In this document: one piece after another, positions 17,541 through 46,393 of the stretch | Numbering within the stretch: position 1 is the first letter of the stretch | Layout: each line of letters begins with the position of its first letter | Assembly: GCF_000374125.1 (NCBI RefSeq) | Contig: NZ_KB893625.1 | Span: 459,649-523,648 of the forward strand | Direction of reading: 5' to 3' | DNA from: Niabella aurantiaca DSM 17617 | GTDB taxonomy: Bacteria > Bacteroidota > Bacteroidia > Chitinophagales > Chitinophagaceae | DNA: 64,000 bases | Translations under genes and position numbers: made by a program | The notes under the pieces: model-generated | Databases searched by the model: none | What the model was told of the DNA's origin: nothing | The model's input: only the letters and a program-made list of their open reading frames with translations

Positions 17541-19469
17541 ATGAAGCGCTTTGCTGCTATTTATTTACTGACTATGGTTTTGATGAGCACTGTAGATTTG
17601 CGTGCCCAGGTGCCGGTGAGTTTTGCTACCGAACTGGAACGCCTTTCCAATCTGCAGCTCCTGCCCCGGTATATGGAAGGCACAGTGGTAAAACAGGTTT
17701 CTTCCTACGATACTACCGGGGGAAATGACGATGGTTTTGGAGGAAAATATTCTTACCTGAGGAAGGAAGCCGGCGGCCTGGTTATTTTTGATCACGAGGG
17801 GCAGGGCGTGATCGAGCGCATCTGGACACCGACGCCCACCGATGATACCCTGGATTTTTATTTCGACGGAGATACCCGCCCTGGTCTGTCCATCCGTTTC
17901 AGAGATCTGTTCAATGGCACCGTGGCGCCCTTCCTGAAACCGCTGGCGGATCATAAAGTAGGCGGCTTCTACAGCTATATTCCCATTCCATATCAAAAAG
18001 GCTGTAAGATCGTGTTCCGGGGAAAAAAGATCCTGTTCCACCAGATCCAGTACCGCACCTATGACGGACTCTACAAGGTGCGCACCTTTAAAAAGGAGGA
18101 TGCAGGCAGGGAACGCCAACGATTGCAAAAGGCCGTCGCATTGTGGGCAGATCCCGACCGGGATGTCCGTAACTTTTATCCGGCAGCTCCGGCAGTGATC
18201 ACCAAAAAATTATTGCTCAGGCCCGGTAGCTCAGCCGTGGTGGCCGCGTTGCAGCAGGGCGGGCGCATCCTGGGGCTGGAGCTGAAGCCTGCTGCCGCTT
18301 TTAACGGCATCTGGAAGCAGCTGGATCTGAAGATCACCTGGGATGATGAGCCCGGCCCTGCGGTATGGGTTCCCGTTGCTGATTTCTTTGGGTTCGCTTA
18401 CGGGTCGCGTTCTATGGAAAGCCTGTTTTTGGGCGCTACCGGTGCAAAAGTGTATAGCTATATTCCTATGCCTTTTGACCGGAAAGCAAAAATTGAGCTG
18501 GTATACCGGAACGGCTATAAAGACCTGCAGCCGGTGGAGCTGTTTGCAACCGTTTCCTATACGTATGAAAAAAGGAACGCTGCAAAGGAAGGCCGGTTCT
18601 ATGCCCTCTGGAAAAACGAACATCCGCCGTTGGGAGCGCCCTATGTTTTTTTGGAAGGGCAGGGGAAGGGACATTATATCGGCACTTTATTGCAGGGGCA
18701 GGCAACCGATTTTACCAATTTTACCGAATTCTTTGAGGGCGATGATGCTACAACGATCGATGGCAGCATGACCCTGCACGGTACCGGTTCCGAAGATTAT
18801 TTCAACGGCGGCTGGTACGCGCAGCCCGGGGGATGGGTGGAGCGTTTGGGTGCGCCGCTGAGCGGTTGCCTGGATTATTCGTTGCCCCTGGGCAGAACGG
18901 GAGGCTACCGGTTCTTTTTGACCGATAAAATGCCGTTCCGTAAAAGCATCCTGCATACCATAGAACATGGTCCGGTCCGCAACAACCGGCTGGTGCAATA
19001 CACGTCCGTTGCGTTGTATTATGCAACAGGACCGATTGCACGTTCCGTTGCACCGGATAATGAGCGAACCCGGGTATGGGTACCGGACACGGTTACCTTT
19101 TATACACGGCTGATGCGGCACCTGACCTATAACGGTAACCTGCAGCTGCAGCAGGGTGCGGCCGCGCTTACCGGAAAGGACAATGCCGTTTTAAATATCA
19201 ATGTATCGGAAGTGCCCCGGGGAAAGTACCGGATCTTTTTACATCAGGTAAAGGCGGCAACCAACCAACTGGAAGTACGCATCGCGGACGCGGTGCGGGT
19301 ACAGGACTGGCGATCCGTAGCTGTTATCGGCGGTAACCAGCCGGTGAGCCTGCTGATCGGTGAGGTGGAAATAACCGATGCATCCATACCGGTGAGCGTG
19401 CTCTTCCGGAGCGGTGATCCGCAACCCGGGCTGGTATTTGACCGAGTAATGTTTGCAAAAGAAAAGTAA
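17541..19469 (+). CDS. GH172 (DUF2961) glycoside hydrolase a, probable exo-alpha-D-arabinofuranosidase
   Basis: 642 residues with signal peptide (to about residue 23, LRAQ). The DUF2961/GH172 core is about residues 30-480: WTPTPTDDTLDFYFDG near 92 and GTGSEDYF at 414-421. By analogy with the family, whose catalytic Glu pair is about 20 residues apart, E418 (in GTGSEDYF) and E396 or E399 are candidates. Known GH172 members are alpha-D-fructofuranosidase/difructose-anhydride enzymes and exo-alpha-D-arabinofuranosidases acting on mycobacterial D-arabinan. The two GH183 genes and the isomerase nearby favour D-arabinofuranose. A beta-sandwich of about 150 residues follows the core. Exported, probably periplasmic. 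Confidence 0.88.
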   Translation: MKRFAAIYLLTMVLMSTVDLRAQVPVSFATELERLSNLQLLPRYMEGTVVKQVSSYDTTGGNDDGFGGKYSYLRKEAGGLVIFDHEGQGVIERIWTPTPTDDTLDFYFDGDTRPGLSIRFRDLFNGTVAPFLKPLADHKVGGFYSYIPIPYQKGCKIVFRGKKILFHQIQYRTYDGLYKVRTFKKEDAGRERQRLQKAVALWADPDRDVRNFYPAAPAVITKKLLLRPGSSAVVAALQQGGRILGLELKPAAAFNGIWKQLDLKITWDDEPGPAVWVPVADFFGFAYGSRSMESLFLGATGAKVYSYIPMPFDRKAKIELVYRNGYKDLQPVELFATVSYTYEKRNAAKEGRFYALWKNEHPPLGAPYVFLEGQGKGHYIGTLLQGQATDFTNFTEFFEGDDATTIDGSMTLHGTGSEDYFNGGWYAQPGGWVERLGAPLSGCLDYSLPLGRTGGYRFFLTDKMPFRKSILHTIEHGPVRNNRLVQYTSVALYYATGPIARSVAPDNERTRVWVPDTVTFYTRLMRHLTYNGNLQLQQGAAALTGKDNAVLNINVSEVPRGKYRIFLHQVKAATNQLEVRIADAVRVQDWRSVAVIGGNQPVSLLIGEVEITDASIPVSVLFRSGDPQPGLVFDRVMFAKEK

Positions 19470-19614
19470 GCAACTTTAGATAAAAATAAACGGAGCGGGG
19501 AATATTTTATTCAGTCAATAATTCCAATTTTTGTAATTTGGATGATAATCGATTGTTCTTATGAAAAAGGAAAGAGCAGAACAACGGCAAACAATCATTG
19601 TTTAAAAGAGCTTC

Positions 19615-20661
19615 ATGATAAAAAAACGTGTATCGTTGAAGGATATCGCCCAAAAAGTAGGGGTGTCCACTGCATTGGTGTCCTATGTGCTGAATGGAAA
19701 AGAGAAAGAGGCCCGGGTGGGAGAGGCCGCAGCCCGGAAAATAAAAAAGGTGGCGGCGGAAATGAACTACCAGCCCAATTTGATTGCCCGGGGGCTGAAG
19801 TTCGGGAAAACGCATACCATCGGGCTCATTGTTGCGGATATCTCCAACCCGTTTTTTGCCATGCTGGCCCGCATTATAGAGCTGGAGGCGCAAAAGCGCG
19901 GGTACACGGTACTGTTTGGCAGCAGCGATGAGCAGCTTGAGAAATCCCAGAACCTGATCAATACATTCCTGAACCGCCAGGTAGACGGGCTGATCATTAC
20001 CCCGGTAGCGGGATCGCAATCCCAGATCGAAGAATTGCGCAACCGGGGGATTCCCTTTGTTTTGATGGACCGGGGGTTTAGCGAGATGGAGACCAATGTA
20101 GTAGTTACGGACAATCATGATGCCATGTACAATGCGGTTCATTTACTGATCCGGAACGGGTATAAGAAACCGGGGATCATAGCATATGATACGCCGCTGA
20201 CGCACATGACGGACCGGATTGCGGGCTATAAAGATGCGCTGAAAGATAACGGCATCCGGTTCAATACAAAATGGCTGGCAAAAGTGCCCTACGGAAATTA
20301 TAAAGAGCATGTGACCACTGCACTGGAGCGGTTGCTGGATGCAAAAGGACGGGTGGTGGACTCGCTGGTCTTTGCAACCAACAGCATCTCCGTACAGTCG
20401 CTGAAAGTGATCCATGCCCGGGGAATAAAAGTACCCCAGGACCTGGGAGTGATCAGCTTTGATGAAAGCGATGTATTTGATTTTTTCTATTCGCCCATTA
20501 CCTACATTAAACAGAACCTCCAGGCCATTAGCGAAAATACGGTCCAGTCGCTGATGCAGGCGATCGATACCCGGGCGCGCAAGTGCATCCGTGTTACCGT
20601 ACCATCGGTAATCGTAAAGGGTGAAAGCAGCAGCAGCCGGCGTGAAGGCCGTAACACATGA
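19615..20661 (+). CDS. LacI-family transcriptional regulator 2
   Basis: 348 residues: LacI helix-turn-helix (SLKDIAQKVGVSTALVSYVLNG, residues 6-27), hinge (NYQPNLIARGLKFGKTHTIGLIV) and a sugar-binding-protein-like domain (FVLMDRGF, GVISFDESDVFDFFYSPITYI). It lies between the two GH172 genes, each of which carries a TTAAACGATTAA-type operator at its promoter, so it is the best candidate for the local regulator. Its own upstream region (19470-19614) shows no copy of the operator. The ligand is unknown, possibly D-arabinose or a D-arabinofuranoside. Confidence 0.93.
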   Translation: MIKKRVSLKDIAQKVGVSTALVSYVLNGKEKEARVGEAAARKIKKVAAEMNYQPNLIARGLKFGKTHTIGLIVADISNPFFAMLARIIELEAQKRGYTVLFGSSDEQLEKSQNLINTFLNRQVDGLIITPVAGSQSQIEELRNRGIPFVLMDRGFSEMETNVVVTDNHDAMYNAVHLLIRNGYKKPGIIAYDTPLTHMTDRIAGYKDALKDNGIRFNTKWLAKVPYGNYKEHVTTALERLLDAKGRVVDSLVFATNSISVQSLKVIHARGIKVPQDLGVISFDESDVFDFFYSPITYIKQNLQAISENTVQSLMQAIDTRARKCIRVTVPSVIVKGESSSSRREGRNT

Positions 20662-20727
20662 TGCCGGCAGTCCTGCGCAGGAAGATATTTTACGAAGACA
20701 TGGTGTTCTGAACCGCTATAGAATAAA

Positions 20728-20759
20728 ATTGGTGGTTAAAAAGAAACCCATTATTTTTG
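20728..20759 (+). promoter_or_regulatory. Promoter of GH172-b
   Basis: ATTG at 20728-20731 and a perfect -7 element TATTTTTG at 20752-20759, 20 bp apart. The start codon at 20811 is about 50 bp downstream. Confidence 0.6.
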
Positions 20760-20773
20760 CTTAAACGTATAAG
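20760..20773. promoter_or_regulatory. LacI-type operator CTTAAACGTATAAG
   Basis: With its flanks it is a 16-bp near-perfect palindrome, GCTTAAACGTATAAGC (20759-20774), starting at the last base of the -7 element. The placement is the same as at 17520 and 27234. A weaker half-site TTTACGATTG follows at 20782-20791. Confidence 0.65.
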
Positions 20774-20810
20774 CTTTTCTGTTTACGATTGTTCATTAAA
20801 AAATGTCAGT

Positions 20811-21974
20811 ATGAAAAAAATTGGATTTTTGTTCCTGTCTTTTCTTTTTGTTTGCCAGGGTTTTTCCCAGGAGCAATTCAATGGTCTGGATATGAGTCTG
20901 GGGAATTTGTCGCGTCTGTCTGATGCAAAGACCCGTTCCATCAGTCCGGAAAATTTTACCGGTGAAAAAGGAAAAGGCGGCATGGCGGATCCGGCCAGGG
21001 ACAAGGGAAAACGTAATGTGGCCAACGCGGCCAATGAGGCACGCGAGCTGGGCAGGGGTTGGAAGGTGAACCCCTTCATCATCATCGAACCCGGTGAGAC
21101 CTTTACAATGGCAGATATTGCCGGTCCCGGAGCCATTCAGCACATCTGGATGACACCGACCGGAAATTTTAATTTTTCGATTTTCAGGATCTACTATGAT
21201 GGGGAATCGGATCCTTCCGTGGAAAGTCCCGTAGGACCCTTTTTCGGTATGGCATGGAACCAGTTCTCCCCGCTGAATTCGCTGGCGATGACGGTGAACC
21301 CGGGCAGCGCTTTTAACAGCTACTGGAAGATGCCGTTCCGGAAGAACTGCAAGATCACCATGCAGAACATCGATACGCAGCCGATGCGCTTATATTACCA
21401 GGTGGATTATACATTAACAGATGTGGGATCCGACGAAGGTTATTTTCATGCCCAGTACCGCCGCAGCAAACCGAATATGACCTCCCTGCATACCATCCTG
21501 GATGGGGTAAAAGGAAAAGGACAATACGTAGGCACGTATATGGGCGTAGGTGTTACCAATAACGGATGGTGGGGAGAAGGCGAAATAAAATTCTATATGG
21601 ACGGGGATGATGATTATGCAACGATCGTGGGAACCGGGACGGAAGATTATTTCTGCGGCTCCTATAATTTTGAAAATAAAAGGACGCATCAGTACCAGGA
21701 ATTTTCAACCGCCTATGCCGGGCTGCACCAGGTGCTTAAGCCGGACGGGCTGTACGGGTCACAAATGCGTTTTGGCATGTACCGCTGGCATATTATGGAT
21801 CCCATACGATTCGACAAAGAGCTGAAAGTGACCATACAGGATCTGGGCTGGAAATCGGGCGGCCGTTACCTGCCCCAGCATTCCGACATTATTACGGTAG
21901 CTTACTGGTATCAGACAGAACCGCATAAAAAATTTCCCAAATTGCCGGATGCCAATATACTGGAGGTGAATTAA
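20811..21974 (+). CDS. GH172 (DUF2961) glycoside hydrolase b, probable exo-alpha-D-arabinofuranosidase
   Basis: 387 residues from the ATG at 20811, which begins a clean signal peptide (MKKIGFLFLSFLF, cut after GFSQ); an upstream in-frame start at 20757 would place the operator inside the gene. This is the compact, single-domain form of the family: IQHIWMTPTGNFNFSIFRIYYDG near residue 105 and GTGTEDYF at 274-281. E278 and E258 (in GEIKF) match the spacing of the two catalytic glutamates known in GH172. It shares the regulator, and presumably the substrate class, with GH172-a; the differing architectures suggest different linkages or substituents. Confidence 0.9.
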   Translation: MKKIGFLFLSFLFVCQGFSQEQFNGLDMSLGNLSRLSDAKTRSISPENFTGEKGKGGMADPARDKGKRNVANAANEARELGRGWKVNPFIIIEPGETFTMADIAGPGAIQHIWMTPTGNFNFSIFRIYYDGESDPSVESPVGPFFGMAWNQFSPLNSLAMTVNPGSAFNSYWKMPFRKNCKITMQNIDTQPMRLYYQVDYTLTDVGSDEGYFHAQYRRSKPNMTSLHTILDGVKGKGQYVGTYMGVGVTNNGWWGEGEIKFYMDGDDDYATIVGTGTEDYFCGSYNFENKRTHQYQEFSTAYAGLHQVLKPDGLYGSQMRFGMYRWHIMDPIRFDKELKVTIQDLGWKSGGRYLPQHSDIITVAYWYQTEPHKKFPKLPDANILEVN

Positions 21975-21984
21975 GGAACGGCCG

Positions 21985-22075
21985 GCTTTATCCGGGGTTT
22001 GAGATCTGGGTTTTGAGATTTTTGAGGGTCTTGGGGTCTCAATTGATTGCTGAAGGCTCAGACCCGGGATTCCGC
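21985..22075. repeat. Degenerate intergenic word-repeat
   Basis: The gap between GH172-b and the DUF6786 gene carries reiterated words (GGTTTGAGATCTGGGTTTTGAGATTTTTGAGGG, then GATTGCTGAAGGCT). Closely related words occur at 25500-25560 and 55290-55350. Not coding. Confidence 0.4.
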
Positions 22076-22093
22076 ACAATAAAAAATGAACAT

Positions 22094-23356
22094 ATGGAAA
22101 TAAAGAATACACTTATTGCGATGGCTGCCGTAGCCGTATTGGCGTCCTGTAACGGCGATACAAAAACGCCCGGTGCCACATCTGATTCAAAAAAAACAAA
22201 TACCGGTATGGAAAACCACGGGCAGGGAAGCTTTGGATATGATGTGCAGTTTTTGCAGCAGAAGGACAGTGGGCTCATCGTGCTGAAAAGCAACGATGGC
22301 GCCAGCCAGGTACTTGTTTCCCCGCGTTATCAGGCAAAAGTGTTCACTTCATCGGCAGACGGGCTGGCCGGTAAAAGCTTCGGGTGGGTGAATTATAAGG
22401 CATTTGAAGGGCCGGAAGATGCGCATATGAATGCCTATGGCGGCGAAGACCGCCTGTGGCTGGGGCCGGAGGGTGGCATTTTTTCGTTGTACTTTAAGCC
22501 CGGTACAAAAATGGAATTTGAAAACTGGAAAACACCGGCGCCCATTGATACGGAATCCTGGACACTTGAAACGTCCGACGGATCTTCGGTTTCCATGAGC
22601 AAGGAAATGAACCTGCAGAATTATGCGGGTACGCAATTGCAGTTGAAAGCAATACGCCAGGTGGCACTGATTGGCCGGGAGGCCATTGCCTCCGATCTGG
22701 GAGTAGCGTTGGGAGCCGGCATCAAATCGGTGGCATTCAAAACGGTCAATAGCATTACCAACAGCGGGTCACAGGCCTGGGATGAAAAAACAGGTGCCCC
22801 CTGCATGTGGAACCTCGATATGTTTACCCCATCGGAGCAGTGCATCATCGTGATCCCCTATAAGAACGAAGCAACGGGGAAGGTGGCTACTACTGATTAT
22901 TTTGGAGAGATCCCCAGGGACCGCGTCCACTACAGTAATGGCCTGCTGTTCTTCAAAGCAGACGGGAAGTCGCGGAGCAAGCTGGGCATTCCCCCGGCGC
23001 GGGTAAAAGATGTTGCCGGCAGCTATGATGCAGCCGGTAATGTGCTCACCATTATTAAATACGATGTGGACCCTGCGGGAAAATATTTAAACCAGGAATG
23101 GCGAACGGACCGGGAGCCCTTTAGCGGGGATGCGATGAACGCTTATAATGACGGGCCACTGGAAGACGGCAAACAGATGGGACCGTTTTATGAAATGGAA
23201 AGCGTTTCTCCTGCAGCCTTTCTGAAACCCGGAGCCACACAAACGCACCGGCACAGCGTATATCATTTTACCGGCGACAAGGCCGTGTTGAGCGCGATCG
23301 CAAAGAAAGTGCTGGGCGTATCAGTGGAGGAAATAGAAAAAGCATTTAGCAAATGA
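22094..23356 (+). CDS. DUF6786 family lipoprotein
   Basis: 420 residues from the ATG at 22094, which starts a short lipoprotein signal (MEIKNTLIAMAAVAVLASC, Cys19); the longer frame from 22013 runs through an intergenic repeat and is unlikely. The body matches a family I know as DUF6786, without established function. Features: GPEDAHMNAYGGEDRLWLGPEGG near residue 102, beta-rich throughout, and TQTHRHSVYHF near the end. The beta-sandwich look and a His/Glu-rich centre recall aldose mutarotase-like folds, but this is a guess. It follows GH172-b by 119 bp and precedes the isomerase. Confidence 0.7.
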   Translation: MEIKNTLIAMAAVAVLASCNGDTKTPGATSDSKKTNTGMENHGQGSFGYDVQFLQQKDSGLIVLKSNDGASQVLVSPRYQAKVFTSSADGLAGKSFGWVNYKAFEGPEDAHMNAYGGEDRLWLGPEGGIFSLYFKPGTKMEFENWKTPAPIDTESWTLETSDGSSVSMSKEMNLQNYAGTQLQLKAIRQVALIGREAIASDLGVALGAGIKSVAFKTVNSITNSGSQAWDEKTGAPCMWNLDMFTPSEQCIIVIPYKNEATGKVATTDYFGEIPRDRVHYSNGLLFFKADGKSRSKLGIPPARVKDVAGSYDAAGNVLTIIKYDVDPAGKYLNQEWRTDREPFSGDAMNAYNDGPLEDGKQMGPFYEMESVSPAAFLKPGATQTHRHSVYHFTGDKAVLSAIAKKVLGVSVEEIEKAFSK

Positions 23357-23392
23357 CCACGGGTTAATGGGGTCAGGGCGTTTAACCGGAAC

Positions 23393-23600
23393 AATTTGAA
23401 AATGTAGGAATGTGAGAATTTAGGAATGTGGAAGTGTGGAGACCGATGGCTACCGGGAGCAGGCATAAAACCGGATCCCATCTCAAACAGAACAGGCTGT
23501 CTGCCATCCGGCGTCGATCATCCAGTGCCCCGCATCCAGTATTTAGTATGATAGTATCCAAAATCCAGTATCCAGCATCTAATATCTAAAGTCTAATAGC
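23393..23600. repeat. Degenerate intergenic word-repeats before fucI
   Basis: Two low-complexity blocks: GTAGGAATGTGAGAATTTAGGAATGTGG (about 23402-23430) and a run of CCAGTATCCAGCATC / CTAATATCTAAAGTCTAATAG words (about 23521-23600). They resemble the TCTATCG-type words at 3600-3820 in style. No promoter stands out in the 250-bp gap. Confidence 0.4.
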
Positions 23601-23606
23601 TATAAA

Positions 23607-25394
23607 ATGGCAGTAAAAAGAAAATTGCAAAAAAATAAATATCCCAAAATAGGGATCCGTCCCATTATTGACGGGCGTTTGGGGGGGATCAGGGAATCAT
23701 TGGAAGAAACAACGATGGGAATGGCCCGGGCAGTGGCTGCCTTGTATTCAAAAAAGCTGACCTATCCGGACGGCAGTCCCGTAGAGTGCGTTCTTGCGGA
23801 CAGCTGCATTGGCGGGGTAAAAGAGGCGGCCGCTTGTGCGACGAAGTTTGCCGCAAATAATGTTGGACTTTCTTTATCGGTAACGCCCTGCTGGTGCTAC
23901 GGCTCGGAAACCATGGATATGGATCCTTCCGTACCCAAGGCTATCTGGGGTTTTAACGGTACCGAACGCCCGGGAGCCGTGTACCTGGCCGCCACCCTGG
24001 CTGCGCACAATCAGAAAGGATTGCCCTGCTTTGGTATTTATGGCCGGGATGTGCAGGATATGGGAGACACATCGATACCGGGTGATGTGGAAGAAAAGCT
24101 GCTGCTTTTTGCAAAGGCCGGCATGGCCGTGGCGATCATGAAGGGCCAGTCTTATCTGGCCATCGGATCGGTATCAATGGGCATTGCCGGATCGATCGTT
24201 GATCCGCAGTTTTTTCAGGAGTATCTGGGAATGCGCAATGAATATGTGGATTCCTCCGAGATCCTGCGGCGCATCCAGCTGGGCATCTTTGACCCGGAAG
24301 AGTTTAAAAAAGCCATTGCCTGGGTAAAGAAGAACTGCAAGGAAGGAAAGGATCATAACCGCAGGGAAAAAATAAAATCAAGAAAAGAAAAGGACAGGGA
24401 CTGGGAATTTGTTACCAAAATGACCATGATCATGCGGGACCTGATGACCGGCAACCCCAGGCTGGAAGCGCTGGGATATGCCGAGGAAGCGCAGGGGCAC
24501 AATGCCCTGGTCTCCGGATTTCAGGGACAGCGGCAGTGGACCGATTTCCTGCCGGACGGCGATTTTTCAGAAGCGATACTGAACTCCTCCTTCGACTGGA
24601 ACGGCATCCGGAATCCTTATATGGTGGCTACCGAAAATGATTGCTATAACGGCGTATCCATGCTGTTCAATTACCTGCTGACGAACGCGGCACAGATCTT
24701 TGCCGATGTGCGCACTTACTGGAGTCCCGACGCTACGGAACGGGTATCGGGCTGGAGACCCGATGGCCTTGCGCAGGATGGATTCATCCATCTCATCAAT
24801 TCGGGCTCTGCCACCCTGGATGGCACCGGTCAGCAGTCGCGGAACGGTAAGCCCGCCATGAAGCCCTTCTGGGAGATCAAAGAGAAGGAGGCTGCAGCCT
24901 GCCTGGCAGCTACTACCTGGAGCCCCTCCAACAGGGATTATATGCGCGGGGGCGGCTATTCCTCCACCTTTCTTACCCGGGGCGGCATGCCGGTAACCAT
25001 GTGCCGCTTAAATCTGGTAAAAGGGCAGGGGCCGGTATTGCAGATCGCCGAGGGGCACACGATCGATCTGCCGGAAAAGGTACACCAGGTATTGAATGAA
25101 CGTACGGACCGGATCTGGCCTACTACCTGGTTTGTACCCAATCTTACCGGCAACGGCTTTTTCAGGGACGTTTATTCGGTAATGGCCAACTGGGGGGCAA
25201 ATCACGGAGCCATCAGTTACGGGCATATCGGGAACCAGCTGATCACGTTGGCTTCCATGCTCCGCATTCCCATAGCCATGCACAATGTTCCGGAAACGAA
25301 GATCTTCCGGCCATCTGCGTGGGGTGCGTTTGGAATGGATCCTGAGGGCGCCGATTACCGGGCCTGCAATGTTTATGGCCCGTTGTACGGATAA
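23607..25394 (+). CDS. fucI: L-fucose / D-arabinose isomerase
   Basis: A 595-residue cytoplasmic ketol-isomerase, full length for FucI. It converts L-fucose to L-fuculose and, by known activity of the family, D-arabinose to D-ribulose. Manganese ligands match the enzyme from enteric bacteria: E343 (ATENDCYNG), D367 (FADVRTYW) and H533 (NHGAISYGH), with the expected spacing of 24 between the first two. Signature [20 protein letters not shown] near residue 50. No fucosidase (GH29/GH95), fuculokinase or fuculose-P aldolase gene is in the window, while GH172 and GH183 genes flank it, so D-arabinose is the more likely substrate here. Confidence 0.93.
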
Positions 25395-27102: not shown

Positions 27103-27128
27103 GAGCGGGTTAAAGACATTCGCATATA

Positions 27129-27158: not shown

Positions 27159-27200
27159 CGTGGCCCCGCTGATCGTATATTTCACAAAACTTATATTATT

Positions 27201-30611: not shown

Positions 30612-30638
30612 TTAATGAATATATTTAAAAATATACTG

Positions 30639-36526: not shown

Positions 36527-36578
36527 AGGCCATCCCTGAAAGAACAGGATATTTTATAATTAAATAAGCAGATGAAAA

Positions 36579-38192: not shown

Positions 38193-38222
38193 TATTTTTA
38201 TTTTTAACTAAATAGTTGGCGT

Positions 38223-40316
38223 ATGTTAGGAAGAGCGGGTATGAAATATTGGATATGGGTACTTTTTTTTCTGGTGAATCATTGTTGCTCAGCCCTTGCG
38301 CAAGGCAATATGCCGGTGGGGTTAAAGCGGTATATCAGCAATATCCGTTCTTCAGGGTTGGACACAGCGGCGTTGGATATTGTTTACAGCAAAATTGAAA
38401 AAAACATATATAAAGTTCAGGTATCGTTGTATCTGAAAGAAGATGTACAAACAGATCACTGGGAATTCTCCATCCGGCCTGCGTTCCGGCCCCGTTTTAA
38501 CTGGGCGCCGCACCTGACTCCTGATAGCAATCATGTAATTGCCCAGCATGTATTCCGGGCGCCGGCACTTATTGTTACGGACGCTTCGCAAATGCTCACC
38601 GTTATACCCGATCTTGACCTGCTGCAAAAAGGCAGCGCAGTACCCTGGTATATGGATATGGATGCCCGGGAAAACCGGTTGGTGCTGGGTATGGGCGAAA
38701 CGGCTATAAAGGAGCATGTGCTTTTTACAAGGAAGCCGGGAGCAGTGTTCCCAAAGGGCCGGGTTTCGATCGGTTTTTATTGCATTGTTTCGGATCAGCA
38801 GGAAGCCATCCGGAATCCGTTTCAGCAAGCCGTTTCCTTTTTATGGAAAAAATGGGGCAGCCCGTTGTTCCGGAAAGGAGAACCGCTGCAGCATGCAGGG
38901 CTGGAACCGTATGTAAAGCAAACCTACGAATGGGCATTTAAGAACTGGCGGCCTGCGGTGTGGCAGGAATTTGAGCTGGACGGTAAAAAACTGGGTGCGC
39001 CGGTATTCATCGTTAATACGACCCAAAGCCCGAATTATAAAGGGATCCCCAATCAGCGGGAATTTCTTTCCATATGGAACCAGGCCTGGTTTAATTCCCT
39101 GCGCTCTGCACAGGGGCTGTACCGGTACGCCGGAAGAACCGGCAACGATTCGCTGATGCGCTACGCATTGCAGACAAAAGAGCTGGCGCTTTCTTTTCCA
39201 CAGCATGATGGCATTTTCCCATCGGTAATAGCTACAGAAATGGAAGAGGTTACGGTAGATGGAAAAAAATACAGGGGTTCCAAAGGCTGGGGCACCCGTT
39301 ATTGGGGAAACTCGAACCGCAATCCCTATACCTGGGACGCCCGCAAGGCGCCTTATCATATTGCGGATATGAGCTTCACAGCCTACTGGATGTTGGTTTG
39401 GTATGATGAGCTGGAAAAAGATAAGAGATTATTGCAATATGCCCAACGCTATGCCGATGCGCTGATCGGGTTACAGGATGCCAGGGGCTTTTTCCCGGCC
39501 TGGCTGGGGCTGGATGATCTGAAACCGCTGCAGCACCTGAATCAATCGCCGGAAACCAGTATTTCGATAACCTTCCTGTTAAAGTTGTATGTCCTTACGG
39601 GTGACCCGCGGTACCGGAGCAGTGCTGTAAAGGCCATGCATGCGGTGATGGAGGATATTGTGCCCGAAGGCCGGTGGGAAGATTTCGAAACCTACTGGTC
39701 CTGCAGCCGCATCGGCGCTGCTGATTGGGTGGGACGTAAAATACCGCGCAACAATATGTACAAGCAGAATAGTTTTTCCATATTCTGGACAGCACAGGCG
39801 TTGCTGGAAATGTTTCAGATTACCAAAGAAAAAAACTATCTTGTTGCGGGTCAGCGGGTACTGGACGAATTGCTCCTGTGGCAGGCGGTATGGCAGCCCC
39901 CGTATATGGCCGTGCGCACCCTGGGCGGCTTTGGAGTGATGAACGGAGATGCAGAATGGAATGATTCACGGCAGAGTCTTTTTGCAGAACTGATCATCCG
40001 GTACGGAACATTGCTCCGCCGTCCGGACTACCGCCAGCGGGGCATTGCCGCCCTCAATGCTTCCTTTGTGATGATGTACACCCCTCTGAACCCGGGTACC
40101 ATGCAGCAGTGGCAGGCCCGGTGGCCTTTTTTCAACAGAAAGGATTATGGGTTTATGATGGAGAACTACGGCCACAATGGGAGTACCAACGCGCAGGGGC
40201 TGGGGATCGGCGAGTTTACGATATATGATTGGGGCAATGGCGCGGCAGCGGAGGCCTATAACCGGATCCTCGATCATTACGGACCGGGCCTGTTCAAAAG
40301 CGGGCATGCAAAGTGA
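38223..40316 (+). CDS. Exported (alpha/alpha)-barrel protein, candidate glycosidase of unassigned family
   Basis: 697 residues; the signal peptide begins at the second in-frame ATG (38241, MKYWIWVLFFLVNHCCSALAQ). I do not recognise the family. Residues about 25-200 are beta-rich. From about 215 to the end there are repeated helix pairs with aromatic and acidic loops typical of an (alpha/alpha)6 toroid: FLSIWNQAWFNSLRSAQGLYRYAG, YHIADMSFTAYWMLVWYDEL, NSFSIFWTAQALLEMFQITKEKNYL, FAELIIRYGTLL. Candidate catalytic acids lie in WEDFETYWSC, GDAEWND and GEFTIYDWGNG. It follows the DUF4185-like gene by 30 bp and should belong to the same glycan pathway. Confidence 0.55.
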   Translation: MLGRAGMKYWIWVLFFLVNHCCSALAQGNMPVGLKRYISNIRSSGLDTAALDIVYSKIEKNIYKVQVSLYLKEDVQTDHWEFSIRPAFRPRFNWAPHLTPDSNHVIAQHVFRAPALIVTDASQMLTVIPDLDLLQKGSAVPWYMDMDARENRLVLGMGETAIKEHVLFTRKPGAVFPKGRVSIGFYCIVSDQQEAIRNPFQQAVSFLWKKWGSPLFRKGEPLQHAGLEPYVKQTYEWAFKNWRPAVWQEFELDGKKLGAPVFIVNTTQSPNYKGIPNQREFLSIWNQAWFNSLRSAQGLYRYAGRTGNDSLMRYALQTKELALSFPQHDGIFPSVIATEMEEVTVDGKKYRGSKGWGTRYWGNSNRNPYTWDARKAPYHIADMSFTAYWMLVWYDELEKDKRLLQYAQRYADALIGLQDARGFFPAWLGLDDLKPLQHLNQSPETSISITFLLKLYVLTGDPRYRSSAVKAMHAVMEDIVPEGRWEDFETYWSCSRIGAADWVGRKIPRNNMYKQNSFSIFWTAQALLEMFQITKEKNYLVAGQRVLDELLLWQAVWQPPYMAVRTLGGFGVMNGDAEWNDSRQSLFAELIIRYGTLLRRPDYRQRGIAALNASFVMMYTPLNPGTMQQWQARWPFFNRKDYGFMMENYGHNGSTNAQGLGIGEFTIYDWGNGAAAEAYNRILDHYGPGLFKSGHAK

Positions 40317-40386
40317 CCCGGCATCCGGAACAGGTAGTGTGATGAGCAGCGGTTTTGTTGTTCCGGAAGTGATCCGGAATGCCATG

Positions 40387-40400
40387 TTTAAACGATTAAA
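40387..40400. promoter_or_regulatory. LacI-type operator TTTAAACGATTAAA
   Basis: A near-palindromic 14-mer with perfect arms TTTAA/TTAAA, 15 bp before the aquaporin start codon. A matching -33/-7 pair is not convincing here (TTG at 40358-40360, CATGTTTA at 40383-40390, 22 bp apart), but a site so close to the ATG could block initiation or read-through. Confidence 0.58.
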
Positions 40401-40415
40401 TAAGGCATTGATAGT

Positions 40416-41216
40416 ATGCACAGTTCGCTTAAGGAGTTTTTGGGAGAAGCCGCGGGCACCTTTATCCTGGTGTTTTTAGGTTGCGGGGCTGTTGCCGTTT
40501 CGATTTTATTCGATTGGCTGCCGCATATCGCCGCCATTGCTGCGGTTTGGGGTGTCGCGGTCGTGATGGCCATTTATGCCGTGCGACCGGTATGTGGTGC
40601 GCATTTTAATCCCGCTGTAAGCATTGCCATGACCATTGCCGGCCGGTTTCAAAAGCGCAAACTGCTGTTGTATTTTATAGCGCAGCTCTTTGGGGCAATG
40701 GCAGCTGCGCTCGTTCTGTATGCGGTCCTGAATGATCCGATAAGGGGTTATGAAGCGGCGCATCATATTTTCAGAGGAACGCCGGCGTCGGTAACCACTG
40801 CCCGGATGTTTGGGGAATTTTATGCGCCCTACCCGGCCTTGCCTGCCATGCTTGCAGAAGGTACGGGCACTTTTTTATTAACGGCTGGTATTTTTATGGC
40901 TACCCATGAGCAACCTGGTAAAAAGAACAGGTCAAAATGGGCGCCGGTAGCTATTGGCGCTGTGCTGACACTGCTTATTGTTCTTTTTGCCTCCATTACC
41001 CAGGCGGGCTTTAACCCGGCGCGGGACTTTGGCCCCCGGCTGGTTGCTTATTTCGCCGGATGGCGGGGAGCCGCATTTCCTGTTCCGGCAGGTGGCTTTT
41101 GCTGGGTATATATACTGGCCCCGTTTGCGGGTGCCACGCTGGCTGCGTTGCTGTACAATTATTATTTAAAACGGTCTCCGCGTGCGGAGCTAAAGATAAG
41201 ATATGAAAACGAATAG
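40416..41216 (+). CDS. Aquaglyceroporin (MIP family, GlpF-like)
   Basis: A 266-residue inner-membrane channel with six helices and two half-helices carrying the NPA motifs: HFNPAVS (about residue 68) and GFNPARDFGPR (about 195). The Asp after the second NPAR marks the glycerol/polyol-conducting branch rather than strict water channels. It carries an operator of the sugar regulon and lies between a glycosidase-like gene and a GTPase gene with which it overlaps, so it may pass a small polyol or sugar set free by the locus, or relieve osmotic load. The solute is inference. Confidence 0.9.
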   Translation: MHSSLKEFLGEAAGTFILVFLGCGAVAVSILFDWLPHIAAIAAVWGVAVVMAIYAVRPVCGAHFNPAVSIAMTIAGRFQKRKLLLYFIAQLFGAMAAALVLYAVLNDPIRGYEAAHHIFRGTPASVTTARMFGEFYAPYPALPAMLAEGTGTFLLTAGIFMATHEQPGKKNRSKWAPVAIGAVLTLLIVLFASITQAGFNPARDFGPRLVAYFAGWRGAAFPVPAGGFCWVYILAPFAGATLAALLYNYYLKRSPRAELKIRYENE

Positions 41217-42306
41217 AGTAAAACTGATCTTCGTGGGGGGCTTTCTGGGTGCGGGTAAAACAACGCTTTTGCAGCAGGCTTCCGCATTGCTTGCCGCCGG
41301 CGGACGATCCGTGGGCCTCATCACCAATGACCAGGCAGATGCGCTGGTAGATACCCATCTTTTAACGAAGCAGAACAGCATGACCCGGGAGATCAGCGGC
41401 AGTTGTTTCTGCTGCAACTATGAGGGGTTTGCCGGGGTGCTGAGCGAGCTTGCGGGTCGCCATACGGCGCCGGATGTGATCATTGCCGAGCCGGTGGGCA
41501 GTTGTACCGACATCTCCGCCACACTTTTACAGCCACTGAAAAGCCAGATGCAGGCAGTAATAGAGCTGGCGCCCTTTACTGTACTTGCCGATCCGGAAAA
41601 ACTGGAGCGCATTCTTGACGGGGACCCGGCAGATCTGCACCCGTCTGCGGCCTATATATATCGCAAGCAACTGGAAGAAAGCGATAGGATCCTCATTTCA
41701 AAAACAGACACTATAAGGCCCGAACGGTTGCAGGTATTGACGGAGAAAGTAAAGCTGGCCTTTCCGGACCACGAAGTGGGGACCATAAGTGCCCGCAGGG
41801 GAACCGGCGTGAAGGAATGGCTGGATCAGGTACTGCAAGGCACGGTTTCCGGAAGCCGGATAGCGGCGATAGATTATGATGTTTATGCAGAAGGTGAAGC
41901 GGTGCTGGGATGGCTCAATGCATCCGTTTTGCTGCAGGGAACGGCGGTAGATTGGGACCGGTTCCTGGAAAACTATTTTCACCGCCTGAATGCGCTGCTG
42001 GGAAGCCCGGCAGGGATCGGGCATATCAAGATCCTGATCGAAGGTATGGGAGACCGGTACTGCATCGGGAACCAGACCGGCGCCGGGCATACATTGCAGT
42101 TCAGGAATTCGGCGGGGATCAGCAATATTGCACAGATGACCATCAATGCACGGGTAGAGGCTGACCCCGCAGCGCTGGAGCAGATGGTTTTTGCGGCATT
42201 GGCGCAATCTGCAGAAGGCGGACTGTTTTACGAGATCCGCCAGTGCCGGTCGCTGCGCCCCGGCTATCCCCGGCCCACACACCGGTACAGCCATGTGGTA
42301 TCCTGA
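41203..42306 (+). CDS. CobW/COG0523-type GTPase, putative metallochaperone
   Basis: A 367-residue cytoplasmic G3E-family P-loop GTPase: Walker A GFLGAGKTT (residues 12-20), metal-binding CxCC in SGSCFCCNYEG (about 66-76), Walker B-like VIIAEPVGSCTD and guanine motif SKTD (near 165). COG0523 proteins deliver metals, often zinc, to client enzymes. It overlaps the aquaporin gene by 14 bp and ends 33 bp before GH116, so it is co-transcribed with them. The C-terminal domain (about 220-330) is larger than a minimal CobW_C. The neighbouring Cys/His-rich GH116 is a candidate client. Confidence 0.86.
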   Translation: MKTNRVKLIFVGGFLGAGKTTLLQQASALLAAGGRSVGLITNDQADALVDTHLLTKQNSMTREISGSCFCCNYEGFAGVLSELAGRHTAPDVIIAEPVGSCTDISATLLQPLKSQMQAVIELAPFTVLADPEKLERILDGDPADLHPSAAYIYRKQLEESDRILISKTDTIRPERLQVLTEKVKLAFPDHEVGTISARRGTGVKEWLDQVLQGTVSGSRIAAIDYDVYAEGEAVLGWLNASVLLQGTAVDWDRFLENYFHRLNALLGSPAGIGHIKILIEGMGDRYCIGNQTGAGHTLQFRNSAGISNIAQMTINARVEADPAALEQMVFAALAQSAEGGLFYEIRQCRSLRPGYPRPTHRYSHVVS

Positions 42307-42339
42307 ATGACACCGATCGTTTGACATAAAAAGAACCAT

Positions 42340-44955
42340 ATGAATAAGGAAACAGGAAGAAGATCGTTTATTAAAAAGCTGGGCGTTGGCGGATTGGCTG
42401 CTGCGTCCGGCATCACGGTGGGCGCCGTTTTACCGGGAAAAAATGCTGGTGCCGCCGGTGTCGGTGCCGCAAAGAGGCTGCCCGCTGCGGCCAGGGCATA
42501 CAATGCTGATTATGAGGAGGAGCACCTCAACCGGGTAGCATTCCCGGTCGGCGGGCTGGGCGCCGGTATGTTTTGCCTGGAGGGTACCGGTGCTGTTTCG
42601 CATATGTCGATCAATCATAAGCCGGAGGTTTTTTTTGAGCCCCAGGTATTTGCCGCCCTGTCTGTAAAAGGAGCAACGCCTGTGGCCAGGGTGCTGGAAG
42701 GCCCGGTGCCGGAGTGGAAGATCTTTGGTCAGCGGGGAACAGGGAACGGCGCGGGGGGCACCAGCTACGGGCTGCCCCGTTTTAGCAAGGCGTCCTTCCG
42801 GGCGCGGTTCCCGTTCGGCACGGTCGCATTGGAAGATGAAGAAGTGCCGGTTACCGTAAAGATCAATGGCTGGAGCCCTTTTATCCCGGGCGATGAAGAC
42901 CACTCCGGTCTGCCGGCGGGCGCGCTGGAATATACTTTCGTAAACCGGTCACCAAAAAAAATAGAGGCGGTGTTCTCGTATAATGCGAAGAATTTTGTGG
43001 CCCGGGGTGAACGGGGGCGCATCCGGAAAATGGACAATGGCTTTATCCTTTCCCAGGAGCCGGGTAAGGACAAACCGTTTACCCAAACCGATTTTGCCAT
43101 CTTTACTACCGCGGAAGAGCGGCCGGTGATCGATTATTGCTGGTTCAGGGGCGGCTGGTTTGACCCGGTGACAATGATCTGGAATGTCATTGAAGCAGGA
43201 GCCACAAAGGACAATCCGCCCGCAGCATGGGACGCTCCGGGTGCATCGCTGTTTGTTCCGTTTACATTGGCGCCAGGCGCACAAAAAACGGTCCGCGTCC
43301 TGATGGCCTGGTATGTACCGGAATCGGACCTGCGGATACAGGATAAAGGCCCCGACGGGAAAGAGCATTGCAACAGCGCAGCATGTTGCATCAGCCCGGA
43401 AGTATCGGGGCTGGATACATTTGTAAAGTTTACCGGCGAAAAATACAAGCCCTGGTATGCATCCAGGTTCGCAGATATACAGGCCGTGGCCGGGTACTGG
43501 CTGCAGCAATATGAAACCCTGAAAAAAAAGTCCGCTTTATTTAAAGACGCATTTTACAGCAGCACCCTGCCACCCGAGGTGATGGAAGCGGTTGCCGCCA
43601 ATCTTACCATCTTGAAATCGCCCACCGTATTGCGCCAGTACGACGGGCGGATGTGGGCCTGGGAGGGGTGCAGTGATGAGAACGGGTGCTGTCACGGAAC
43701 CTGCACACACGTTTGGAATTATGCACAGGCGATCTGTCACCTGTTTCCCAGACTGGAAATCGGGCTGCGGAATACGGAGTTCTGCGAGGACCAGAGCGCC
43801 GGAGGGCATCAGACCTTTCGCGCCAACATGCCCATCAGCCCCGTAAAGCACGATTTTCATGCTGCGGCCGACGGGCAGCTGGGCGGGATCATGAAAGTGT
43901 ACCGGGAATGGCGCATCAGCGGGAACCAGGCCTGGTTAGAAAAAATATATCCGCTTGTAAAATGCAGCCTTGATTATTGTATTGAAACCTGGGACCCGAT
44001 GCATAAAGGCGTGCTGGAAGAACCCCATCACAACACGTATGATATCGAATTCTGGGGGGCCGATGCCATGTGCACCACCTTTTACCTCGGGGCGCTGCAA
44101 TCCATGATCAAAATGGGACGTTTTCTTAAAGCAGACATTTCGGTCTATGAGTCGTTGCTGGAAAAAGGAAAGACCTTCCTGGAAAGCCAGCTGTACAATG
44201 GCGAATTCTTTTTTCAAAAGATCCGGTGGGAGGGATTAAAAGCCCGGAACCCGGCTGAGGCACAATCCTTCGGAGGCGCCTATTCCAAAGAGGCGGTTGA
44301 AATCCTGAAAAAAGAAGGCCCGAAATATCAATATGGCAAGGGCTGTTTGTCGGATGGCGTCCTGGGAAGCTGGATCGCGGCCGTTTGCGGGCTGGAAGAC
44401 CCGGTTGACCGCAATAAGATAACCAGTCATCTTCTTTCGGTACACCGGTACAATTTAAAAAAGAGCCTCAAAGGGCACGTGAACCCGCAGCGGCCGGCGT
44501 ATGCGCTGGGAAATGAAGGCGGGCTGCTGCTGTGCACCTGGCCCAGGGGTGGAAAACTGTCCCTGCCCTTTGTGTACAGCAATGAAGTATGGACGGGGAT
44601 CGAGTACCAGGTGGCTGCGCATTTAATGATGATGGGAAAAGTGGAGGAAGGCCTGGAGATCGTACGGACCTGCCGCAACCGGTATGACGGAAAGATCCGG
44701 AACCCCTTTAACGAGTATGAATGCGGGCACTGGTATGCAAGGGCAATGTCGAGCTATGGCATGTTGCAGGGGCTTACAGGGCTGCGGTACGATGCCGTTG
44801 ATAAAACGGTATACATCGATTCAAAGATCGGTGACTTTACCTGCTTTATTGCGGCCGCTACGGGGTTTGGGACGGTGACCTATAAGAATCAGAAAGCCCG
44901 GCTGACAACCGTGCACGGCAAGATCGATGTAAAAGAGATCAGGATCGCAGGATAA
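42340..44955 (+). CDS. GH116 glycoside hydrolase with Tat signal, candidate exo-beta-D-arabinofuranosidase
   Basis: 871 residues. Twin-arginine signal GRRSFIKKLGVGG (residues 6-18), so it is exported folded. GH116 architecture: N-terminal beta-sandwich (about 50-380, FPVGGLGAGMFCLEGTG) and a catalytic (alpha/alpha)6 domain. Aligned from memory with human GBA2, the nucleophile is E442 in WAWEGCSD and the acid/base D568 in HNTYDIEFWG. Directly after the nucleophile is a Cys/His cluster (C444, C450, C451, H452, C455, H457) that looks able to bind a metal. Family activities: beta-glucosidase, beta-xylosidase, glucosylceramidase and exo-beta-D-arabinofuranosidase; the last fits the GH183/GH172 context and would remove terminal beta-D-Araf. 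Confidence 0.85.
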   Translation: MNKETGRRSFIKKLGVGGLAAASGITVGAVLPGKNAGAAGVGAAKRLPAAARAYNADYEEEHLNRVAFPVGGLGAGMFCLEGTGAVSHMSINHKPEVFFEPQVFAALSVKGATPVARVLEGPVPEWKIFGQRGTGNGAGGTSYGLPRFSKASFRARFPFGTVALEDEEVPVTVKINGWSPFIPGDEDHSGLPAGALEYTFVNRSPKKIEAVFSYNAKNFVARGERGRIRKMDNGFILSQEPGKDKPFTQTDFAIFTTAEERPVIDYCWFRGGWFDPVTMIWNVIEAGATKDNPPAAWDAPGASLFVPFTLAPGAQKTVRVLMAWYVPESDLRIQDKGPDGKEHCNSAACCISPEVSGLDTFVKFTGEKYKPWYASRFADIQAVAGYWLQQYETLKKKSALFKDAFYSSTLPPEVMEAVAANLTILKSPTVLRQYDGRMWAWEGCSDENGCCHGTCTHVWNYAQAICHLFPRLEIGLRNTEFCEDQSAGGHQTFRANMPISPVKHDFHAAADGQLGGIMKVYREWRISGNQAWLEKIYPLVKCSLDYCIETWDPMHKGVLEEPHHNTYDIEFWGADAMCTTFYLGALQSMIKMGRFLKADISVYESLLEKGKTFLESQLYNGEFFFQKIRWEGLKARNPAEAQSFGGAYSKEAVEILKKEGPKYQYGKGCLSDGVLGSWIAAVCGLEDPVDRNKITSHLLSVHRYNLKKSLKGHVNPQRPAYALGNEGGLLLCTWPRGGKLSLPFVYSNEVWTGIEYQVAAHLMMMGKVEEGLEIVRTCRNRYDGKIRNPFNEYECGHWYARAMSSYGMLQGLTGLRYDAVDKTVYIDSKIGDFTCFIAAATGFGTVTYKNQKARLTTVHGKIDVKEIRIAG

Positions 44956-45274
44956 CCATTTTTTAAAATGTCCCGGTCTGTCAGGTTAATTTTTATGAAT
45001 TTAATGGTCAAAGGCAAAGCAGCAGTGCACCGGTAATATAAGGCTGCTCCAAAAAGATTCCCCCTGTGCTGCGGCTAATACGAAATTGAATTATAATTTA
45101 GGTCGATATTTTCCCGTATAATGCGGATGTAATAGCCGTTTAGACCAACAGAATGGGTCTTTTACGGATATCCGATCGGTATAAGAGCAGGTCCCCGGGA
45201 GTTACGTCTTTTGATCATCAACAGAAGGTATCGGCTGTGGTAAAAATGCTGCGGGGATAAAATCATTAGCTACA
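44956..45274. other. Intergenic region GH116-GH183-b
   Basis: 319 bp with no supported gene and no copy of the CTTAAACGATTAAG operator. AT-rich stretches (ATTATAATTTAGG near 45089-45102) could be promoter material but do not fit the consensus. Confidence 0.4.
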
Positions 45275-46393
45275 ATGCAGGGATTGAAATTTATTTTATT
45301 GCTGCCGGCCATCGCGGGTGCTATGGAATTGGCCGGGAGCAGGGCGATGACGGTACCGCAGCAACGGGATCTGCTGCCTATTAATGTCAAAAGGATCGCT
45401 CGTGTTACCGGTTCGGGCGACGCTGGAGCGCTATTGCCGGATCCGAACAGGACCGCTCTTGCTTATAACGTAGGCGGTACCGATTTGGGCATCGCATGGA
45501 AAATGGGTAATGGATCTGTGGGGCTGTTTTTTGGCGATACCTATGGCAGCGATTTCAGACCTGGTGGCGGAGGGCCGGGAAACGCGGGCGGCTGGCGTTC
45601 GAATGTGCTGGCTTTCTCAAACGATAAAGATCTGTCGGACGGGCTCGCTTTCGACCGGATGCTTACGGATGCGGGGAAAACGGAAGCAAAAGAAGTTATC
45701 GCCAGCCGTCATGATCCGGATTGCAAAGGCGAGCATACCATGATCCCAACGGCAGCCATTCATGCCGGCAATGCCGATTATGTACACTGTATGAACATTC
45801 ATTGCTGGGAGGTGCCCGGCCGCTGGAAAACGAACTATTCCGGGCTGTTCCGGTCTGCGGATCTTGGAAGAACCTGGAGCCGTTGCCACAGCGTGCGGTT
45901 CCCCGGCGGAAGTAAATTTGCCCAGGCGGCTTTTGCAAAGCGTAATGGGTTCGTTTATATGCTGGGAACGCCCACAGGCCGGCACGGGGCCATTTATCTT
46001 TTACGGGCAGGGGAAAAGGATCTTGCTTTTCAGTACCGGTATGCTTACTGGAATGCAGACCGGGGCTGGGTAAAGAACAACGAGGCCATGGCAACACCCG
46101 TCATCGAAGCTCCGGCAGGGGAGATGTCGGTGATTTATAATGAAACATGGCAGCGATGGATCATTACCTACCTGGATGTGAGCAGGAAAGCGCTGGTACT
46201 GCGCGATTCAAAGGAGCTTCAGAAGGGATGGAGCAGCCCCAAGATACTGGTGCCGGCTTCCGACTACCCGGGTTTGTACGGATCATTTATCTATCCCACA
46301 GCAACCGGTGAAACACTTTATTTCCTGATGTCCGTATGGAAGGACTACAATGTATTTTTAATGCGCGCAGACCTGAAGCTGGCAGACGGCTGA
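45275..46393 (+). CDS. GH183 (DUF4185) protein b, probable endo-D-arabinofuranase
   Basis: 372 residues; the N-terminus is a weak signal peptide (FILLLPAIAGAMELAGS), no lipobox. Single DUF4185 propeller: NVGGTDLGIAW (D70) and GLFFGDTYGSDF (D88), then YVHCMNIHCWEVPGRWKTNYSGLFRSADLGRTW and a C-terminus (ETLYFLMSVWKDYNVFLMRADL) closely parallel to GH183-a. It lacks the Ig-like domain and lipid anchor of that copy, so it probably works in the periplasm on imported oligosaccharides. Last gene of the carbohydrate region. Confidence 0.85.
   Translation: MQGLKFILLLPAIAGAMELAGSRAMTVPQQRDLLPINVKRIARVTGSGDAGALLPDPNRTALAYNVGGTDLGIAWKMGNGSVGLFFGDTYGSDFRPGGGGPGNAGGWRSNVLAFSNDKDLSDGLAFDRMLTDAGKTEAKEVIASRHDPDCKGEHTMIPTAAIHAGNADYVHCMNIHCWEVPGRWKTNYSGLFRSADLGRTWSRCHSVRFPGGSKFAQAAFAKRNGFVYMLGTPTGRHGAIYLLRAGEKDLAFQYRYAYWNADRGWVKNNEAMATPVIEAPAGEMSVIYNETWQRWIITYLDVSRKALVLRDSKELQKGWSSPKILVPASDYPGLYGSFIYPTATGETLYFLMSVWKDYNVFLMRADLKLADG

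Follow-up and report, generated by a model that had tools for sequence, protein, structure and literature searches.

A candidate D-arabinan utilization locus in Niabella aurantiaca and an unnamed protein family associated with D-arabinose genes

Results

The stretch of DNA analysed here, termed the window, comprises 64,000 nucleotides of Niabella aurantiaca DSM 17617 (contig NZ_KB893625.1; C1:459649-523648 of the 5.93-Mb genome) and contains, at 7658-46393, a set of genes that sequence comparison leads us to assign, with a probability of about 0.86, to a polysaccharide utilization locus for polymers of D-arabinofuranose (D-Araf), that is, D-arabinan. A SusC/SusD pair lies here together with members of glycoside hydrolase (GH) families 172 and 183 and a predicted D-arabinose isomerase, the combination by which we recognize such a locus. 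An earlier annotation of the same DNA (the original prediction) had placed a candidate D-arabinan locus at 17541-46393. Pfam and NCBIfam domain searches confirm that its genes are real open reading frames (ORFs), every one on the + strand, and that the set it named is present, with two GH172, two full GH183, one divergent DUF4185, a GH116, a GH43, FucI and a FucP-type transporter. The start, however, has to be moved upstream to 7658. The SusC/SusD pairs and LacI regulators, named in the plural, do exist, but only one pair and one regulator fall inside 17541-46393, the second LacI gene (7658-8671) and the second SusC/SusD pair (8971-14178) lying beyond those limits. We include these upstream genes because the same order is kept in the Niabella genome G658, where LacI-1, SusC-1, SusD-1, DUF3823 and the gene for a protein of 711 amino acids (aa) precede GH172-a and GH172-b, with an additional GH183 (279 bits) placed between the DUF3823 and 711-aa genes. 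The locus is composed as follows.

7658..8671, + strand: LacI-type regulator 1 (Pfam LacI and Peripla_BP; same place in the G658 and G618 loci)
8971..14178, + strand: SusC-1 (8971-12105) and SusD-1 (12118-14178) (Pfam; upstream of GH172-a in G658 too)
14204..15022, + strand: DUF3823 protein, probable surface glycan-binding partner of SusC/D-1 (Pfam DUF3823, 31.6 bits)
15056..17191, + strand: 711-aa protein, without a Pfam or NCBIfam family (also in the G658 and G618 loci)
17541..19469, + strand: GH172-a, long type, with a DUF2961 domain (PF11175, 196 bits)
19615..20661, + strand: LacI-type regulator 2 (Pfam)
20757..21974, + strand: GH172-b, predicted exo-alpha-D-arabinofuranosidase (DUF2961, 292 bits; likeness to ExoMA1; tree)
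22013..23356, + strand: DUF6786 protein (PF20583, 553 bits)
23607..25394, + strand: FucI, predicted D-arabinose isomerase (Pfam fucose isomerase domains; two NCBIfam equivalog models)
25813..27102, + strand: FucP-type sugar:H+ symporter (Pfam MFS; TIGR00885, 271.2 bits)
27423..32423, + strand: SusC-2 (27423-30611) and SusD-2 (30615-32423) (Pfam)
32469..33692, + strand: probable surface glycan-binding protein (SGBP; BT_3987-like_N, 83.5 bits)
34034..35038, + strand: GH43 (PF04616; closest solved matches 3kst, 248 bits, and 4qqs, 154 bits)
35147..36526, + strand: GH183-a, predicted surface endo-D-arabinanase (PF13810, 277 bits; catalytic residues kept)
36579..38192, + strand: divergent DUF4185 protein, activity doubtful (48.5 bits)
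38223..40316, + strand: 697-aa protein of an unnamed family (profile scans, neighbourhood counts)
40416..41216, + strand: MIP-family channel (Pfam)
41203..42306, + strand: CobW-type GTPase (PF02492)
42340..44955, + strand: GH116, predicted exo-beta-D-arabinofuranosidase (likeness to ExoMA2, 363 bits)
45275..46393, + strand: GH183-b, predicted periplasmic endo-D-arabinanase (PF13810, 335 bits; EndoMA1, 184 bits)

GH172-b, GH116 and both full GH183 proteins have as their closest solved structures the four-enzyme D-arabinan set of Microbacterium arabinogalactanolyticum (EndoMA1/2, ExoMA1 and ExoMA2), with which the three families of the window share active-site residues (PMC10509167; published accounts are cited throughout from the portions available to us). 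GH172-b scores 377 bits against ExoMA1, compared with 138 for DgGH172c, 131 for 4kq7 and 110 for alphaFFase1, and 179 of 347 residues aligned with ExoMA1 are identical (52%). Pairwise alignment shows that it keeps both active-site glutamates together with Asn253 of ExoMA1 (E274, E296 and N304), the asparagine being the residue that blocks fructofuranosides (PMC10509167). In a tree of 89 rows GH172-b and ExoMA1 share a 31-row clade (SH-aLRT 99), while GH172-a and the long GH172 proteins of two Dysgonomonas loci fall together in a clade of 25 rows (support 100), both clades standing apart from alphaFFase1; a grouping with fructofuranosidases, which the original prediction had named as evidence against itself, is thus found for neither protein. 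GH172-b is accordingly predicted to be an exo-alpha-D-arabinofuranosidase of the ExoMA1 type. GH172-a also retains both glutamates (E399 and E418), while no equivalent of Asn253 is found in the alignment or the tree rows, GGWY occupying that region; it would correspond to the long-type GH172 of Dysgonomonas gadei, which is weakly active (PMC10115798). Beyond the window, the genome has six more DUF2961 genes, which lie on contig C13.

The two full GH183 proteins are 39% (GH183-a) and 38% (GH183-b) identical to EndoMA1 over the aligned stretch and keep its residues D33, D51, W138, R198, E243, L292 and Y293, P141 being kept in GH183-b and unaligned in GH183-a. The nucleophile, acid/base and third carboxylate (D33, D51 and E243) correspond to D168, D186 and E373 in GH183-a and to D70, D88 and E283 in GH183-b. 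The expectation of two clear GH183 proteins and one divergent relative agrees with their scores of 277, 335 and 48.5 bits, the last being only slightly over the Pfam cut-off (39.5 bits) and belonging to the protein without the conserved glutamate. This third protein has no match in the PDB, and its pair of aspartates 18 residues apart aligns only uncertainly with the catalytic pair.

By comparison of scores, GH116 is far closer to ExoMA2 (363 bits) than to glucosidases (at most 40 bits), and it keeps the nucleophile, the acid/base and two sugar-recognizing residues of ExoMA2 (E431, D557, H446 and R483) as E442, D568, H457 and R494. These scores and residues place it away from the glucosidases, with which a grouping would likewise have spoken against the original prediction, and GH116 is predicted to be an exo-beta-D-arabinofuranosidase. 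The MIP channel and CobW GTPase genes overlap by 14 bases and directly precede GH116 (40416-42306), and CobW adjoins or precedes GH116 in eight of the ten other Niabella loci with GH116; the channel does not pass the NCBIfam aquaporin Z model. One guess is that this association reflects a metal need of one of the locus enzymes. A second GH116 (66% identical) is encoded on contig C11 of the same genome (26825-29407), in the neighbourhood of a gene for an FGGY kinase and of one resembling MIP (28%). We considered a second complete D-arabinan locus there and rejected it, as contig C11 shows no GH172 or GH183.

N-termini were read by eye for signal motifs. GH183-a, GH43, SusD-2 and SGBP have lipoprotein-like N-termini; GH172-a, GH172-b (from an inner ATG near 20811) and GH183-b have plain signals, and GH116 has a twin-arginine-like one. 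Within the limits of such a reading this fits the division proposed originally, with GH183-a and GH43 at the surface and GH183-b, both GH172 proteins and GH116 in the periplasm.

For the monosaccharide, FucI exceeds the cut-offs of two NCBIfam equivalog models, and the transporter lies slightly below that of FucP (TIGR00885; 271.2 against 280.4 bits), which suits its description as FucP-type. The genome holds an araB-araD-araA cluster in which the kinase at C1:791984 precedes araD and araA, approximately 286 kb from the locus; this kinase is 51.5% identical to one encoded in a related locus, L107. The kinases of three related loci (L100, L107 and L057 of genome G002), which adjoin FucP-like genes, score 665-680 bits as ribulokinases and 26-44 bits as L-fuculokinases. 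AraB acts on D-ribulose, and a D-arabinose route runs via D-ribulose 5-phosphate (PMC6452873). FucI and AraB would together close a D-arabinose pathway, and the distant ribulokinase is the likely partner of the FucI route. In the description of N. beijingensis, D-arabinose is named in a list before weak l-fucose utilization, presumably among the substrates used (PMC9558575).

The 697-aa protein has no Pfam match above the curated cut-off, no NCBIfam match and no relative in the PDB. Its score against Pfam GH127 is 16.5 bits, under the cut-off of 24.9, and among 56 family members GH127 is matched by 22, C5-epimerase by 17 and GH88 by 13 (E<=0.01). Profile comparison gives probabilities of 87-93% to GH127-type profiles (about 200 columns) and 56-60% to GH88-type profiles. 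The GH127- and GH88-type profiles match each other (96%) better than either matches the family, and because of this we take the comparison to indicate an (alpha/alpha)-barrel fold and no more than that. GH127 enzymes need a conserved cysteine cluster with a glutamate. No such cysteine cluster was found in the 56-row alignment, which has one near-invariant cysteine, Cys494 (55 of 56 rows). We accept GH127 and GH88 as a fold class only, and we reject membership of GH116 (hhalign probability <=0.1%). The acidic residues D487, E489, D548, D576, E578, D581 and E647 are invariant in 15 diverse members, as are D130 and D145 nearer the N-terminus. Among the papers listed by word searches of the literature, made without a sequence search, none names the family.

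The closest named relatives of the 697-aa protein are those of N. drilacis (77%) and Niabella pedocola (74%); it occurs in 12 of 395 genomes of the phylum, at 56% identity or more in three, the window's own counted. A scan of 84,980 species genomes yielded 285 pattern matches, of which 235 were confirmed. Neighbourhoods were counted in the best 80 of these 235 stretches, which lean to close relatives and include many Dysgonomonadaceae; at most about 10 kb was read on either side, and genes were labelled by their best blast matches (>60 bits) to proteins of the window. GH172 is found in 52 of the 80 loci, a FucP-like gene in 34, DUF6786 in 28, GH116 in 19, FucI in 17 and GH183 in 14. Fifty-two stretches are full-length, and 36 of these hold GH172; in three of the 80 (L139, L145 and L148) no long frame for the 697-aa protein itself passed the ORF rule. 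The chance of a GH172 gene in a 22-kb stretch is about 0.03, an estimate resting on one genome (eight copies in 5.93 Mb). All-against-all clustering recovers, as families present in more than ten of the 80 loci, GH172, FucP, a kinase-like family, DUF6786, SusC/SusD, LacI, GH116, FucI and GH183; a cluster of proteins of approximately 550 aa, whose representative has a kinase-like start, occurs in 28, and the kinases of L100 and L107 scored above belong to this group. A specific tie of the 697-aa protein to GH183 was rejected (14 of 80 loci against 52 for GH172). Two Dysgonomonas loci share the gene order GH116, DUF6786, 697-aa protein, long GH172 and FucI. The 697-aa protein is a candidate for a new D-arabinofuranoside-active family.

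By record title, which can be wrong, the carriers are mostly Bacteroidota, with Bacillota and Acidobacteriota also represented as well as individual metagenome contigs bearing the labels Aminicenantes and Lokiarchaeia. The contig binned as Lokiarchaeia, L153 (JAHQWS010000262.1), encodes a 57% relative, an identity that suggests mis-binning or recent transfer. In G002 a phosphodiester glycosidase with a NAGPA domain (L057:678-1562) stands between the 697-aa protein and SGBP/SusD/SusC, in a locus without GH183. Distant relatives (25-41% at most between the stretches compared) adjoin DUF6786 in G352, G207, G376 and G258. A profile search with DUF6786 gave no relative in the PDB, even with E values as high as 5 admitted. 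The 711-aa protein occurs in two of 296 genomes of the phylum, both Niabella, and its gene is kept near GH172-a or LacI-2 in G658, G618 and G269; its sole PDB match, an RNA methyltransferase (E 0.033), was taken as chance.

Within the genus, the GH183-b query matches 14 of 17 Niabella genomes, and GH116 exceeds 1,200 bits in 11, with broken pieces in two more. Loci were compared at a cut-off of 150 bits; as an edge of the stretch read falls within the locus in G678, G683, G675, G681, G676 and G684, an upstream gene absent there counts as not seen. LacI-2, GH172-b, DUF6786, FucI, FucP and, mostly, CobW, GH116 and GH183-b form the stabler part, and the middle part (SusC/SusD, SGBP, GH43, GH183-a, the divergent DUF4185 and the 697-aa protein) is swapped between species. 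The D-arabinan gene set is not common in the family: DUF4185 exceeds 140 bits in five of 294 genomes, four of them Niabella, including the window's own, and one outside the genus, with any DUF4185 match in 55. Downstream, the locus is followed by the glutaminyl-tRNA synthetase gene (GlnRS, 46558), as in eight of the ten other genus loci read that have GH116, five of these eight with a few inserted genes between; GlnRS does not follow the locus in G685 and G502. Further on, at 55963-63321, another uptake locus, distinct from this one, seems to begin, with genes for an ECF sigma factor, FecR, a SusC-type receptor and an FAD-dependent oxidoreductase that carries a Golvesin-C domain.

Discussion

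The GH172 tree, the Asn253 equivalent, the scores and residues of GH116 and the active-site residues of the GH183 proteins all favour the original proposal of feeding on D-arabinan. In the route that we envisage, GH183-a would make internal cuts in alpha-1,5-D-arabinan at the cell surface and the SusC/SusD pairs with their binding proteins would bring the oligosaccharides into the periplasm, where GH183-b would shorten them, GH116 would take off beta-D-Araf ends and GH172-b, aided by GH172-a and probably by the 697-aa protein, would remove alpha-D-Araf ends. The D-arabinose would be taken up by the FucP-type symporter, converted by FucI to D-ribulose and by the ribulokinase of the araB-araD-araA cluster, about 286 kb away, to D-ribulose 5-phosphate, with the LacI regulators probably sensing a breakdown product.

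Two published systems provide precedents, and the locus belongs to a known kind. PUL42 of D. gadei, likewise from a member of the Bacteroidota, has the same short and long GH172, two GH183, a GH116 and a predicted fucose isomerase (PMC10115798, PMC10509167). It differs in having three GH172 where the window has two, and, as judged from a partial PUL42 gene list, the window adds the MIP channel, CobW, GH43, the divergent DUF4185 and the 711-aa protein (PMC10115798). In PUL42 the genes 02467, 02468 and 02471, whose locus tags begin with HMPREF9455, encode a GH172, GH116 and the long GH172 (PMC10115798, PMC10509167); because in the two Dysgonomonas loci the interval from GH116 to the long GH172 is occupied by DUF6786 and the 697-aa protein, we predict that 02469 and 02470 encode these two. 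The Microbacterium cluster has an ABC transporter, cytoplasmic exo-enzymes and both isomerase and kinase, whereas the window has SusC/SusD, exo-enzymes that appear exported (N-termini read by eye) and an isomerase without a kinase (PMC10509167). Outside subscription papers and preprints, the papers listed by our literature searches include two primary accounts of enzymes of this kind that degrade D-arabinan, and none of those listed connects Niabella or other Chitinophagaceae with D-arabinan.

Several observations weigh against a D-arabinan locus. GH172-a scores weakly and alike against all four solved GH172 proteins (63-86 bits), and the GH172 tree is a quick one made with no bootstrap, carrying a long-branch warning that includes GH172-a and leaving 24 of 86 inner branches open. 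In the divergent DUF4185 protein, Gln277 replaces the conserved E243 in pairwise alignment, so that this is probably not a working GH183. The nearest solved relatives of GH43 are named xylanase, xylosidase and arabinofuranosidase, and both GH43 and the 711-aa protein could broaden the range of substrates. None of the eight FGGY matches of the genome falls in the window, and no kinase is found in the locus. Three of the 17 Niabella genomes have no GH183-b match, among the loci read that of G684, with GH116 and the rest of the core, being one such case. In the 697-aa family, 20 of the 80 loci have none of GH172, GH183 and GH116. Near its distant relatives no GH172 match was seen in the 20 kb read in G352 and G207 or the approximately 4 kb read in G376 and G258, and those in G004, G014 and G243 have neither DUF6786 nor GH172 in the stretches read; because of these distant relatives, the link of the family to GH172 is seen in its closer branch only.

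The strongest competing explanation, which we regard as a serious possibility though not the favoured one, is that the locus is directed to other D-Araf glycans (those of pilins, O-antigens or soil glycans yet to be described) at least as much as to mycobacterial-type arabinan. LacI-2, GH172-b, DUF6786, FucI, FucP and the 697-aa protein would then make up a D-arabinofuranoside module of general use, extended by GH183 and GH116 in some species. D-Araf does occur in pilins of Pseudomonas aeruginosa and in the O-antigen of Stenotrophomonas maltophilia (PMC8605356), and the module is seen without the additions: G269 has it with no GH183-b or GH116 match in the genome, bar a partial DUF4185 of 62.7 bits; in G002 it is accompanied by SusC/D, and neither GH183 nor GH116 appears in the 40 kb read; and in 36 of the 80 loci of the 697-aa family GH172 is present while GH183 and GH116 are both absent to a distance of about 10 kb. 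In the window, on the other hand, there are two full GH183 proteins as well as GH116, all with conserved active sites, a complement that fits a branched, beta-capped arabinan.

It is unlikely, though worth weighing, that the block of SusC-2, SusD-2, SGBP and GH43 is a separately acquired module for a plant or galactofuranose glycan beside a D-arabinan core. Among Niabella species the block is swapped and the core remains in place, the names of the solved GH43 relatives would suit a plant glycan, and a GH43_31 of Bacteroides finegoldii acts on mycobacterial galactan, which makes a galactofuranosidase role possible (PMC10115798). Yet the block carries GH183-a too, in the window and in N. drilacis; and GH43, because it is not seen in the G676, G684, G658, G618 and G502 loci as read, is not part of the core.

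The two remaining explanations have little in their favour. FucI and FucP match family models that would suit a locus for L-fucose glycans, but Pfam finds no fucosidase among the scanned proteins of the locus, and we rejected this very improbable reading on the ribulokinase type of the kinases in the three related loci. Least credible of all is a locus for fructans or difructose anhydrides with GH172 enzymes acting on alpha-D-fructofuranosides: although the founding member of the family, alphaFFase1, cleaves both sugars (PMC8605356), the tree, the Asn253 equivalent and the scores put GH172-b with ExoMA1, and this reading was rejected. We know of no role in fructan use for GH183, ExoMA2-type GH116 or FucI.

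With a D-arabinan locus preferred, the new lead to emerge here is the widespread unnamed 697-aa family that travels with D-arabinose genes, a subject absent from the original prediction. At evenly balanced odds, it may be a new (alpha/alpha)-barrel GH family acting on D-arabinofuranosides (for example on branch or beta-linked ends), which with GH172, DUF6786, FucI/FucP and ribulokinase would mark a D-arabinose-glycan economy beyond mycobacterial arabinan, reaching Bacteroidota, Bacillota, Acidobacteriota and perhaps further. Its occurrence with GH172 but without GH183 raises the question of which natural D-Araf glycans are so common, and its members, together with DUF6786, the 711-aa protein and GH43, are candidates for assays on D-Araf oligosaccharides. 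D-arabinan is characteristic of cell walls of the mycobacterial type, and D-arabinan-cleaving enzymes serve as tools in their study. The presence of the locus in most of the sampled Niabella genomes indicates that, among Bacteroidota, D-arabinan genes extend beyond the gut species investigated to date.

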